Position numbers and translations under genes: made by a program. This document shows, one piece after another, positions 3,426 through 5,989 of a DNA stretch of 64,000 bases (the stretch's first letter is position 1; every line of letters starts with the position of its first letter). Source of the DNA: Clostridium sp. 12(A) (lineage in GTDB: Bacteria; Bacillota; Clostridia; Lachnospirales; Lachnospiraceae); assembly GCA_000526575.1 (NCBI GenBank), contig JAGI01000002.1, forward strand, positions 868,001 to 932,000, given 5' to 3'. The notes beneath the pieces are model-generated. The model saw only the letters and a list, made by a program, of their open reading frames with translations. It did no database searches and was not told the origin of the DNA.

Positions 3426-3453
3426 ATTATAGCATAAATACTATTGATTGCAA
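3426..3453 (-). promoter_or_regulatory. Sigma-A-type promoter for miaB-mutS
   Basis: On the minus strand, -35 TTGCAA (3448-3453), a 16-base spacer, and a perfect -10 TATAAT (3426-3431) preceded by TGC (extended -10). The -35 lies inside the last codons of the upstream ABC-F gene, so the promoter is packed into its 3' end. The first base of miaB is 34 bases downstream of the -10. Confidence 0.75.
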
Positions 3454-4970
3454 AGTCCAAAATCCACTTGCTCCACCTCTATCTGGCTGGTCGCAATGGC
3501 TTTAGAAAATGCCTCATCATGCTCTACAAAAATCATAGTGGGCTGAAATTCCTTAATCAATTCTTCAATCTGCATCCTGGAATAGATATCAATAAAATTC
3601 AGAGGCTCATCCCAAATATACAAATGCGCCTTCTCACATAGGCTTCTGGCAATCAGAACCTTTTTCTTTTGGCCTTCGCTGTATGCCTCCATATTTTTTT
3701 CAAACTGCTCTCTGGAGAAATCAAGTTTTCTTAAAACAGCTTTAAACAAAAAATCCTCGACTCCGCATGCTTTGGCATAATCAGATAAGCTTCCTTGTAA
3801 AAAGGAGGTATCCTGAGATACATAGGAGATAGTAAGGCCGCTGGCAGCTTCAATTGTTCCTGTATAAGACAATGTATCAGGTCTCGCTTCCCTTCCAAGG
3901 ATTAACTTTATCAGACTTGATTTCCCGCATCCGTTCTTCCCTTGAAGTGAAACCCGCTGCCCCTGTTCCAACACAAAACTGATTGGCTTGCATATTGGGC
4001 GGTCAAAGCTTGGTACCACTTCTTTTAAGGTGAGGATTCGATCCATATGATGTTTTGCAGGGTACAGCTTCAAACGCTCTGCTTCTTCTATATTTTTTAA
4101 TAAGCCTTTTTTCTCATCAATCGCACGATCCTGCCGCTGTTCCAGATTTTTTCTGCGCATCTGCATCCGTCTTGATTTTTCACCAATATAGGCTCTACTG
4201 TCAATGGATTTTTCGTGAGCCATGGACTTTTTACCTATTTTTGTTGATTCTACTGAATCCGCCCACTCCCTGGATTGCTTAGCCGACGCTTCCAGCCGCC
4301 GAATGCCCTTCTTTAATCTGTCATTTTCTGACAATTCATATTGATCCTGTTTTTGTTTATTTTCATACCAGGAGGTGAAATTACCCTTTTGCACCTCTAT
4401 ATTTGTTTTATTAATGGATAGAATATGGTCCACGGAAGCATCCAGAAAGTTTCTGTCATGGGAAACCAATATAAATCCTTTTTTCCCACTTAGATATCGA
4501 CTGACCAAAGCTCTTCCTTCCCGGTCCAGATGATTAGTCGGTTCGTCTATGAGCAGAAAATGATTTTCCTTTAAAAACAGTGCAGCCAATAGGACCTTTG
4601 TCCGTTCTCCATTGGATAATGTTGAAAACGGGCGGTAAAGAACATCTTCTGTTACCTGTAATTTGGTAAGCTCCCGTTTTATCTCCCAATATTCAAATTC
4701 CCCATGTAAGGATTCCAAAATGTCCATGGTACTTCTGTCCTGATCTTCAATAGGGAATGGAAAATAATCAAACTCTGCACCAGATACAATGCTCCCTGTA
4801 AATTCATAACGTTTCATCAAAAGGTTTAAAAAAGTGGTTTTCCCACGTCCATTTCTCCCAGTGAACCCAAGCTTCCAATCAGTGTCAATTTGAAAAGACA
4901 CATGTTCAAAAACAGGCTCGATTCCGCCTTCGTATGTGAACGATAAATCTGTAACTTGTATTAATGACAT
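3441..4970 (-). CDS. ABC-F ribosomal protection ATPase, Lsa/CplR-like
   Basis: Soluble twin-ATPase of the ABC-F family; antibiotic-resistance members displace pleuromutilins, lincosamides and streptogramin A from the ribosome. Two ABC cassettes are visible. The first has Walker A GRNGRGKTT, signature LSNGERTK and Walker B LLIDEPTNHLD. The second has GKNGCGKSS, signature YSEGQKKK and IWDEPLNFID. Between them is a charged, Lys/Arg/Glu-rich linker. There are no membrane segments. I prefer the ATG at 4970 (509 residues): the ATG at 4976 is only one base from the GGAGG at 4978-4982, while 4970 is seven bases away. The structured attenuator-like leader upstream supports a drug-inducible resistance role. 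A housekeeping ABC-F role is possible but less likely. Confidence 0.88.
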   Translation of the reverse strand: MSLIQVTDLSFTYEGGIEPVFEHVSFQIDTDWKLGFTGRNGRGKTTFLNLLMKRYEFTGSIVSGAEFDYFPFPIEDQDRSTMDILESLHGEFEYWEIKRELTKLQVTEDVLYRPFSTLSNGERTKVLLAALFLKENHFLLIDEPTNHLDREGRALVSRYLSGKKGFILVSHDRNFLDASVDHILSINKTNIEVQKGNFTSWYENKQKQDQYELSENDRLKKGIRRLEASAKQSREWADSVESTKIGKKSMAHEKSIDSRAYIGEKSRRMQMRRKNLEQRQDRAIDEKKGLLKNIEEAERLKLYPAKHHMDRILTLKEVVPSFDRPICKPISFVLEQGQRVSLQGKNGCGKSSLIKLILGREARPDTLSYTGTIEAASGLTISYVSQDTSFLQGSLSDYAKACGVEDFLFKAVLRKLDFSREQFEKNMEAYSEGQKKKVLIARSLCEKAHLYIWDEPLNFIDIYSRMQIEELIKEFQPTMIFVEHDEAFSKAIATSQIEVEQVDFGLCNQ

Positions 4971-4988
4971 ATACATACCTCCAAATCA

Positions 4989-5008
4989 GCAGAAAGTGAT
5001 TTTCTGCA
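4989..5008 (-). other. Hairpin between leader terminator and ABC-F ribosome-binding site
   Basis: A 7-base-pair inverted repeat, GCAGAAA with TTTCTGC and a short loop, lies between the leader terminator and the GGAGG of the ABC-F gene. It stops about seven bases short of the ribosome-binding site, so it does not obviously block it. It may only insulate the ribosome-binding site. Confidence 0.4.
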
Positions 5009-5010
5009 TT

Positions 5011-5045
5011 AAAAACGGCTGCAAGAAATCATATCTCGCAGCCGT
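5011..5045 (-). terminator. Rho-independent terminator inside the ABC-F leader (attenuator)
   Basis: On the minus strand, ACGGCTGC at the 5' arm pairs with GCAGCCGT, extended by a G-T wobble and AGA/TCT to about 12 pairs, and is followed by TTTTTA. It sits about 200 bases downstream of the promoter but before the ABC-F start, so it would stop transcription early by default. Its 3' arm holds TTCTTGCA (5020-5027), which is complementary to an upstream leader segment at 5143-5150. This offers a way to open it. Confidence 0.8.
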
Positions 5046-5049
5046 CAGC

Positions 5050-5072
5050 TACCTGCCTGAACCAGGCAGGTA
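5050..5072 (-). other. Leader hairpin with 10-base-pair perfect stem
   Basis: TACCTGCCTG pairs with CAGGCAGGTA around a three-base loop. It lies immediately 5' of the attenuator terminator. It has no T-run of its own, so it is a structural element of the leader and not a second terminator. Confidence 0.7.
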
Positions 5073-5092
5073 AATTGCAGGTATTTTAAATG

Positions 5093-5114
5093 TTGCAAAT
5101 AGAATCATTTGCAA
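5093..5114 (-). other. Leader hairpin with 8-base-pair perfect stem
   Basis: TTGCAAAT pairs perfectly with ATTTGCAA around a six-base loop. It is one of four consecutive dyads between the uORF and the terminator in the ABC-F leader and separates the candidate antiterminator segment from the terminator region. Confidence 0.65.
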
Positions 5115-5141
5115 ACAAAAAAGGCTGGAGAATGAAGTGAT

Positions 5142-5216
5142 ATTCTTGCATAACAGGCACAACAAAAAAGCATAGTAAAACTTATACTCATGTTGTACAG
5201 TAACTTCAGCAAGAAT
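5142..5216 (-). promoter_or_regulatory. Candidate switch hairpin following the leader uORF
   Basis: ATTCTTGC (5209-5216, starting at the last base of the uORF stop codon) is complementary over eight bases to GCAAGAAT (5142-5149). An inner stem, GTACAACA with TGTTGTGC (5157-5198), closes the loop. The 3' segment can instead pair as TGCAAGAA (5143-5150) with TTCTTGCA in the terminator 3' arm (5020-5027). A ribosome held on the uORF would cover the first segment and favour the second pairing. The complementarity is seen directly; the switching model is inference. Confidence 0.6.
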
Positions 5217-5227
5217 TATAACTTCAT
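5216..5227 (-). CDS. Three-codon upstream ORF (Met-Lys-Leu-stop) in the ABC-F leader
   Basis: ATG AAG TTA TAA, preceded by a near-ideal ribosome-binding site (GAGGTGAAAGG directly upstream). It starts about 25 bases after the predicted transcription start. The strength of the ribosome-binding site for such a tiny frame argues that ribosome loading here is functional. Short leader ORFs that sense ribosome-targeting drugs are known in front of several resistance genes, including ABC-F genes. A frame this short would respond to drugs that block the first peptide bonds, which fits the drug range of Lsa-type proteins. Expression is inferred. Confidence 0.65.
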   Translation of the reverse strand: MKL

Positions 5228-5259
5228 CCTTTCACCTCTTTCTCGTCAAATATAAATTC

Positions 5260-5288
5260 AAAATATCATAAAAGTTTCAAATTGTCAA
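5260..5288 (-). promoter_or_regulatory. Sigma-A promoter of the ABC-F leader transcript
   Basis: Minus-strand -35 TTGACA (5283-5288), exactly 17 bases, then -10 TATTTT (5260-5265). It lies just after the motB stop codon, so the ABC-F gene is transcribed independently of motAB. The predicted leader is about 280 bases, unusually long for this window. Confidence 0.8.
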
Positions 5289-5296
5289 CTAAAAAA

Positions 5297-5989
5297 CTAA
5301 TTTGCCCTACCTGTAATCGTAATCTCTACCCTACGGTTCTTTGCTCTGCCTTCTTCCGTATCATTGGTAGAGATGGGATTATAATGAGAATTACCTTCAA
5401 TCGACATCTTTTCTGCCTGTAAGCCCATAGAAGTCATGTAATTTAATACAGTAACCGCCCGGTTTACGGATAACTGCCAGGAATCCGCTTCGTTATAAGC
5501 ATCCCTGTTTCCTAAATCAGCCGTATTACCGGTAATGGTAATGTGATGGATGTCTCCGTATATTGATTCCAGACTTTTTGCAATCTCTTCAATGACCGGT
5601 TTGCTTTCTGCCTGCAATATAGCGGTATCCGGCTTGAAAAGCATGGCATCCCTCATACGGATGGTAATGGATGTACCTGTTGATGATAAGTCTATAGTTT
5701 GTTCCAAATTCCGCTCTTTTATGTAAGTTTGCAGACCTTTATATACGTTCTCTAAATTATCTTCCGGAAGAATGGTTCCTGACTGTTCCAGACCCTTGGA
5801 GCCGCCATGGTTTAATGCCTGTTCCAATCCCTGAGACATCTCCTTTACCTTTTGCGTATCAACAGAACTCATACCGTACATGATGATAAACAAAGCAAGG
5901 AGCAATGTAATCATATCGGAATATGTAAGAAGCCAACGCTCAGAATTATCTTTTTCACCATCATAGTCCATAATGCTTCTTCTGCTCAT
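5297..5989 (-). CDS. motB: Flagellar motor stator protein MotB
   Basis: Peptidoglycan-anchored half of the ion-driven flagellar stator. The 230 residues have a short cytoplasmic N-terminus, one transmembrane segment at about 21-44 containing the ion-carrying aspartate in TYSDMITLLLALF, a linker, and an OmpA-like peptidoglycan-binding domain at about 120-228 ending in the typical NRRVEI. It follows motA by 18 bases as an operon. No other flagellar or chemotaxis gene is in the window, so the stator pair stands apart from its machine. The promoter of the ABC-F gene starts right after its stop. Confidence 0.93.
   Translation of the reverse strand: MSRRSIMDYDGEKDNSERWLLTYSDMITLLLALFIIMYGMSSVDTQKVKEMSQGLEQALNHGGSKGLEQSGTILPEDNLENVYKGLQTYIKERNLEQTIDLSSTGTSITIRMRDAMLFKPDTAILQAESKPVIEEIAKSLESIYGDIHHITITGNTADLGNRDAYNEADSWQLSVNRAVTVLNYMTSMGLQAEKMSIEGNSHYNPISTNDTEEGRAKNRRVEITITGRAN

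Follow-up and report, generated by a model that had tools for sequence, protein, structure and literature searches.

How might a chromosomal drug-protection gene of the ABC-F type be kept silent until it is needed, and what does the RNA in front of it respond to? We addressed this question in a stretch of 64,000 nucleotides from Clostridium sp. 12(A) (here denoted the window), where an ABC-F gene is preceded by a long structured leader. The leader and its candidate switch lie on the minus strand at 5288-4970, and the coordinates of all parts below refer to that strand. Upstream of the leader is a motAB-like gene pair (ORFs 6814-5297, identity read from the ORFs). The ABC-F gene most likely starts at ATG 4970 (MSLIQ...), with GGAGG 7 nt upstream, and was given this start in place of position 4976 of the mechanical ORF list. 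The best NCBIfam match of the protein is NF000167 (Lsa) at 695.6 bits, which is below the model cut-off of 750; it passes the general ribosomal-protection ABC-F model NF000355 with 458.1 bits against a cut-off of 380. The closest solved structure is Lsa(A) (PDB 7nhk, 403.5 bits), and weaker matches were 6ha8 (151 bits; listed as ExpZ, which we take to be VmlR) and Lmo0919 (7nhn, 123 bits). Because of this probable family membership (Lsa), the drugs expected at the locus are lincosamides, pleuromutilins and streptogramin A. Among named relatives, [Clostridium] aerotolerans carries the same gene at 96% identity and Lacrimispora algidixylanolytica at 87%, so that the window very probably comes from a Lacrimispora. 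Downstream of the ABC-F gene, on the same strand, an ORF at 3392-1944 resembles miaB, encoding a tRNA methylthiotransferase (identity read from the ORF).

The leader and the gene comprise the following parts, with the evidence for each in brackets:

5260..5288 (-): putative sigma-70-like promoter, TTGACA 5288-5283, 17-nt spacer, TATTTT 5265-5260, TG before the -10 element (consensus scan)
5232..5238 (-): Shine-Dalgarno sequence (SD) of the upstream ORF (uORF), GAGGTGA (sequence; conserved in alignment A1)
5216..5227 (-): uORF ATG AAG TTA TAA, predicted peptide MKL (sequence; short uORF at the same place in 23/23 genus loci)
5117..5242 (-): SL1, anti-antiterminator hairpin enclosing the uORF and its SD (folding, covariation, model R1)
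5209..5216 (-): segment 1, ATTCTTGC, partner of segment 2 in the OFF state (exact complement, permutations)
5157..5199 (-): SL1 apical hairpin, with a T-run on its 3' side that fits the TTNTTT pause motif, close upstream of segment 2 (folding, motif count)
5142..5150 (-): segment 2, TGCAAGAAT, common to the 1:2 and 2:4 pairings (exact complements, permutations)
5123..5131 (-): segment 2', TCTCCAGCC, the SL1 base and predicted ON-state partner of the terminator 5' arm 5043-5034 (nascent-RNA folding, covariation)
5093..5115 (-): intervening hairpin (folding)
5051..5071 (-): intervening hairpin, placed like SL-2 of vmlR (folding)
5011..5044 (-): intrinsic terminator, 5' arm 5044-5034, 3' arm 5027-5016, U5 (folding, covariation; not flagged by consensus scan)
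4989..5007 (-): hairpin just 5' of the ABC-F ribosome-binding site (sequence)
4978..4982 (-): GGAGG of the ABC-F gene (sequence)
3441..4970 (-): Lsa-type ABC-F gene, 509 aa from ATG 4970 (profile search, structure-sequence match)

Most of these parts had been proposed in an initial annotation made from the letters alone. Its uORF with a strong ribosome-binding site is the MKL frame behind GAGGTGA, and its four dyads correspond to the SL1 apical hairpin (5199-5157), the hairpins at 5115-5093 and 5071-5051 and the terminator (5044-5016); a fifth lies at 5007-4989. Its consensus promoter exists as a site with 10/12 consensus matches, which is not significant alone because shuffled regions yield 1.7 such sites against the 1 found here; the positions of promoter and transcription start are given as putative. 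Both of its exact 8-bp complementarities were recovered: 5216-5209 (ATTCTTGC) with 5149-5142 (GCAAGAAT), and 5150-5143 (TGCAAGAA) with 5027-5020 (TTCTTGCA) in the terminator 3' arm. When the leader was shuffled 5000 times with dinucleotides preserved, a triple of this kind, defined as exact 8-mer complements upstream and downstream having a common middle segment, arose in 3 shuffles. The folding energy of the leader (5245-5010) is -93.6 kcal/mol, at z = -9.6 against shuffles. A terminator consensus scan of the leader region returned 0 sites and missed the terminator at 5044-5011, whose U-run is only 5 long here and longer in many orthologues. An Rfam search of the window gave 0 matches over the gathering threshold; at E up to 5, the region 4950-5320 gave 3 unrelated matches far under threshold (two microRNA models and RsaOG). 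Rfam contains a model for rli53, which was not among the matches of the window's leader.

The initial annotation held that a ribosome stalled at the uORF would hide segment 1 and free segment 2 to open the terminator. Blocking 5209-5230 in the fold did open 1:2, as proposed; the terminator probability was still 1.00 and 2:4 was about 0, indicating that 2:4 alone is too weak in the finished leader. The same was seen in equilibrium folds of the finished leader with the uORF masked in other ways, with the terminator at 1.00 and 2:4 at no more than 0.003 in every mask (both lengths containing the 3' arm), which rules out the equilibrium-only version of the model. Since even a masked leader prefers the terminator once it is completely transcribed, the switch must be kinetic.

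We folded the nascent RNA at successive positions of RNA polymerase, representing a ribosome stalled at the AUG by a mask over 5242-5212. Under this mask the SL1 base (5131-5123) takes the 5' arm of the terminator (5043-5034) as its partner, over ~9 bp, once that arm emerges. With the polymerase at 5020, antiterminator pairs in the window's leader rose from 0 unmasked to 8.88 between segment 2' and the 5' arm (2':3) plus 7.41 between segment 2 and the 3' arm (2:4) when masked, and no terminator formed in the masked RNA. At 5016, with the last bases of the 3' arm out, equilibrium favours the terminator again under the mask. The unmasked RNA kept 1:2 at 0.94 and made the terminator. Computed as a two-strand duplex, the nested antiterminator has -26.0 kcal/mol. 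In this folding model it is the earlier 2':3 pairing that makes the route work during transcription. Computation and covariation together place the uORF inside an anti-antiterminator hairpin; by computation the terminator and antiterminator exclude each other, the finished RNA preferring the terminator in every mask.

We searched 25 genomes of the genus for the gene; 23 of them matched at an E-value of 1e-90 or lower, and one locus was taken from each (L001 and L009-L030, of which L029 and L030 are partial matches); 80 named loci were also fetched. All 23 genus loci carry a short uORF with its SD, 212-265 nt upstream of the assigned gene start, the peptides being MKL, MK, MN, MI, MKK and MEL, with MR in some more distant relatives. 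Orthologous leaders devoid of the uORF or the paired segments, which the initial annotation had named as speaking against its reading, are therefore not the pattern of this genus. SL1 and the antiterminator are common to three leader classes. Class A uORFs have 2-3 codons and stop ahead of segment 1; those of class B have five to seven codons and run through segment 1 (TCTTGC) in frame, which is why most of them end in S-C or S-C-K/R; in class C the AUG is followed at once by a stop. Five Lacrimispora-genus genomes hold a second Lsa-type gene (L031-L035), 57-58% identical to that of the window, with the leader uORF MINFSC of class B type.

The nascent-RNA computation was extended to 58 leaders (30 class A, 12 class B, 16 class C), chosen by eye for a recognisable uORF and distinctness from 109 Lsa-type loci (L001, L009-L116, species repeats included), the remaining loci being dropped. 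Stalling gave an antiterminator of at least 8 bp in 57 of them, compared with 2 among the free leaders and none under a 31-nt control mask placed elsewhere; because the leaders were hand-picked, neither 57/58 nor the presence of a uORF in every class A leader is an unbiased rate. The exceptions were L110, with no antiterminator when stalled, and L066 and L084, where it was present even when free. A terminator of at least 5 bp formed in 56/58 free leaders, all except L027 and L046. L027 (genome G012) is also the sole genus orthologue whose ABC-F match has an in-frame stop, and its terminator U-run is lost, which suggests joint decay of gene and leader. An 'SD loading window', in which the uORF SD would lie open before segment 2 is made, was dropped: the class A SD is no more than half open (median unpaired 0.50 before segment 2 and 0.21 once SL1 is complete) and barely changes in class B (0.26 to 0.24) and class C (0.34 to 0.24).

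Alignment A1 joins the 30 class A leaders, of which 22 belong to the genus and a further 8 were picked by hand. The alignment retained the 1:2 and 2:4 pairings with covariation, as the initial annotation's reading called for. Standard pairs fill 89.3% of the SL1 and terminator cells, against 47-54% when the partner is slid, and both-side changes occur at 24 pairs, compared with 14.8 in shuffles. Cells of the 2:4 helix are paired in 99.2% of cases, and this helix shows 2 both-side changes against 0.6 shuffled (reached in 8/500). Further pair types were no higher than in shuffles, the observed number being reached in 301/500 for 2:4 and in 332/500 for the whole antiterminator, although the remaining measures did exceed shuffles. 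For 2':3, pairing fills 87.5% of cells in one part and 83.7% in the other, and columns 131 and 239 pair in only 16/28 rows.

Segments were also swapped between leaders; segments 1, 2 and 4 were placed by consensus patterns, with segment 4 of L018, L024 and L030 set by hand where the pattern had taken a later hairpin. Across the 58 leaders (32 distinct triplets) 0/2000 permutations reached the 1:2 or the 2:4 pairing of a leader's own segments, and in class A alone (16 distinct triplets) 1/2000 did so, with the limit that the covariation of 1:2 and 2:4 is not fully independent, since segments 1 and 4 are nearly identical in sequence. Joint changes accompany this: segment 2 GCAGGAA occurs with TTCCTG in segments 1 and 4 (L045, L048), GCAGAAA with TTTCTG (L049), and GCGGGAA with TTTCCCGC in segment 4 (L062). 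Duplexes of the SL1 3' arm with the terminator averaged -22.1 kcal/mol for own against -17.0 kcal/mol for swapped partners (56 distinct, 0/2000 permutations), and class A and class B each gave 0/2000 separately. Own duplexes of class C were not better than swapped ones (131/2000; 4/16 beat the swapped mean), because their segments hardly vary. The TTNTTT motif lies 4-22 nt upstream of segment 2 in 49/58 leaders against 10.0 expected from shuffles, an enrichment in which base pairing of the apical hairpin may have a part. The motif's distance from segment 2 depends on the class, being mostly 14-15 nt in class A leaders, 12 nt in class B and 4-10 nt in class C, and we consider the T-rich stretch a putative pause site.

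When run on the genome of the window, a covariance model of SL1 built from 27 class A leaders (R1) hit this site alone, on either strand owing to the palindromic form of the hairpin. In 299 genomes of the family, the window's included, 22 matched at E up to 0.001, leaving 21 others, and 21/21 of the hits in other genomes precede an ORF matching the window's ABC-F protein at 48-66% identity (BLASTP); in L122 this match is split across two ORFs. The 16 distinct leaders included 14 with a recognisable terminator arm, for which switching was computed; 13 switch and L127 fails. The series 21 hits, 16 distinct, 14 computed and 13 switching, together with the uORF in 23/23 genus loci, gives the unselected figures for the element. 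No matching terminator 3' arm was found in L120 and L125, which were excluded from the switching computation. By eye, their SL1 has a different segment pair, and CTCTTTTTTT or CTCCTTTTTT at the SL1 base could pair with an SD; these two leaders are perhaps a translational version.

The second model (R2), built from class B and class C leaders, was applied to 398 genomes of the phylum and, with E limited to 1e-4, matched 16 others. Fourteen of these matches precede a gene 50-60% identical to that of the window, and in the remaining 2 (L154, L156) the leader stands before the apparent truncated start of such a gene. In the family of genome G344, R2 matched 104/197 genomes; this family is presumably Paenibacillaceae, because several of its leaders start with sequence identical to that of named Paenibacillus, Cohnella and Fontibacillus loci. 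Among 29 newly fetched loci from these 104 genomes, 27 have ABC-F-matching sequence downstream, frame-shifted in L182. As for the other two, L172 ends at the contig end and L173 carries a reverse-transcriptase-like ORF after the leader U-run, which probably belongs to a group II intron. The leaders of L154, L156, L182 and L173 seem to have outlived their gene. R1 and R2 together miss 17/80 named loci at E up to 0.05 (hand count), and many of the 63 matched had served to build the models. The work provides a searchable RNA model for the Lsa-type leader.

The G344 family is rich in the shortest uORFs. In a sample of 30 of its readable leaders, which is not fully independent because at least four repeat leaders of the named set, we found AUG-stop in 25 (TAA 14, TAG 7, TGA 4) and, by eye, GUG-stop in 2 (L155, L191) and a longer AUG frame in 3 (L171, L173, L195). 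Translation of class C frames is presumptive, because GGAG sits 12 nt from the AUG and wobble pairing with the SL1 3' arm could alone keep TRR after ATG. The bare AUG-stop uORFs of the relatives suggest that the sensor may be the initiating ribosome and not a peptide. On balance we lean slightly towards regarding the leaders as one old element of Lsa-type ABC-F genes, spread over several Firmicutes families and without an Rfam match, in which the peptide would be irrelevant (from seven codons, M-x-x-F-S-C-R, via MKL and MK to AUG-stop) and a ribosome that has initiated and cannot make its first peptide bond would be sensed. If this is true, AUG-stop is the smallest possible ribosome sensor, so far known from plants. 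A literature search for AUG-stop sensors in bacteria found, in the sections of the articles available, the plant case as the only stalling precedent (PMC5972666); the AUGA overlaps described in E. coli are a different phenomenon (PMC9841429). With uORF lengths of 1 to 7 codons and one conserved switch, the question of peptide versus start codon is directly testable.

Taken as a whole, the data make it very probable that a ribosome-mediated transcription attenuator controls the Lsa-type ABC-F gene. In the absence of drug, the uORF would be translated and the ribosome would leave fast, allowing SL1 to close and tie up its 3' arm; the terminator would then form and transcription would end near 5011. 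A drug blocking the first peptide bond or early elongation would hold the ribosome on the uORF start, covering the SL1 5' arm. The freed 3' arm would capture the emerging terminator 5' arm (2':3) and then zip with the 3' arm (2:4), and RNA polymerase would read through this antiterminator into the ABC-F gene.

Control could instead be chiefly translational, the stalled ribosome freeing the ABC-F SD and leaving termination aside, and several observations lean that way: the hairpin at 5007-4989 stands just ahead of the ABC-F ribosome-binding site, ATACCT at 5084-5079 can pair with AGGTAT at 4981-4976 in that site (folds of L001 and L010), L120 and L125 have SL1 and no matching terminator 3' arm, and cplR is reported to be regulated at both levels (PMC10201436). 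The GGAGG, however, lies outside the 5007-4989 stem, and the terminator is complementary to SL1 in most leaders examined. In the folds examined by eye the ATACCT pairing was limited to the leaders of the window and of its nearest named relative, and for this reason we dropped it as the main level of control; translational attenuation as the chief mechanism is improbable.

It is more improbable still that a signal other than the ribosome is sensed (a small ligand, a protein, temperature or amino-acid supply) and that the short ORF plays no part. In favour of such a reading are the high stability of the structure and the status of uORF translation as a prediction, but the start codon and SD are kept in 23/23 genus loci while codons 2-4 vary (MKL, MK, MN, MI, MKK, MEL), the AUG-stop leaders of relatives could report only the charging of initiator tRNA, and the controlled gene is of the ribosome-protection type. 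Least credible of all is a plain intrinsic terminator beside a palindrome, with constitutive partial read-through and with shared segments that merely reflect common hairpin vocabulary. The near-identity of segments 1 and 4, which makes the 1:2 and 2:4 covariation partly dependent, fits this explanation; the scarcity of the shared-segment triple in shuffles, the joint change of three segments in L045, L048, L049 and L062 and the position of the hairpin-model hits before Lsa-type genes speak against it. The observation is real, mechanistically coherent and well supported, and to a specialist mostly expected. The attenuator probably accounts for the silence, until need arises, of a chromosomal drug-protection gene that is widespread among Firmicutes of gut and soil.

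By analogy, the window's leader belongs to the vmlR/cplR-type ribosome-mediated attenuators of ARE-ABCF genes, and we place it with vmlR because every testable feature was found. The initial annotation did not recognise the architecture; it is that of vmlR, with a tripeptide uORF inside an anti-antiterminator hairpin, a pause hairpin and a terminator (PMC9226507). In B. subtilis vmlR the tripeptide is MIN, located in the anti-antiterminator SL-1, initiation at the uORF is reported as needed for lincomycin induction, and the toeprint is reported to lie about 16 nt 3' of the A in the uORF start codon (PMC9226507). The two leaders also share a further hairpin, a hairpin near the ribosome-binding site of the gene, an antiterminator after stalling (computed here), the TTNTTT motif, named for vmlR as a NusG pause motif, and an ARE-ABCF gene under control (PMC9226507). 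Likened by the description of parts, they differ in the gene (VmlR-type there, Lsa-type here) and in the uORF SD, which is described as single-stranded before SL-1 in vmlR (PMC9226507) and lies inside the SL1 base here. Pairing of that base with the terminator 5' arm as well sets the window's leader apart from vmlR as described.

C. difficile cplR likewise has a tripeptide uORF (MRI) sequestered in a 5' hairpin, a terminator and, when stalled, an antiterminator, and retapamulin and lincomycin raise its mRNA level (PMC10201436). Its terminator stem holds the SD of the gene (PMC10201436), whereas the terminator U-run here ends 28 nt before the GGAGG. Computed uORFs listed for this group of genes are MK[L/Q] for VmlR2 and MAGN for LsaA (uORF4u, PMC10201436). 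Enterococcus faecalis lsa(A), compared by description, thus shares the protein family (Lsa) and has another uORF peptide, and the portions of the same article available describe no RNA switch for it (PMC10201436). A search by title on Lacrimispora or Lsa leaders returned no paper on this leader, and in the accessible text of the literature examined the computed LsaA uORF was the only Lsa leader (PMC10201436). Listeria lmo0919, with rli53, shares lincomycin-relieved premature termination upstream of an ARE-ABCF gene (PMC11550727), and its protein is distant from that of the window (123 bits, versus 403.5 for Lsa(A)). For Streptomyces ARE5 leaders, toeprints are reported to show stalling at the uORF start codon with the same drug group. 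The plant NIP5;1 uORF is a start codon followed directly by a stop at which regulatory stalling takes place, the behaviour we propose for class C, but it is eukaryotic, senses boron and acts on translation and mRNA decay (PMC5972666). Four findings go beyond the known examples: how far the element extends among Lsa-type genes, the missing Rfam match, the dual role of the SL1 base and the occurrence of AUG-stop leaders.
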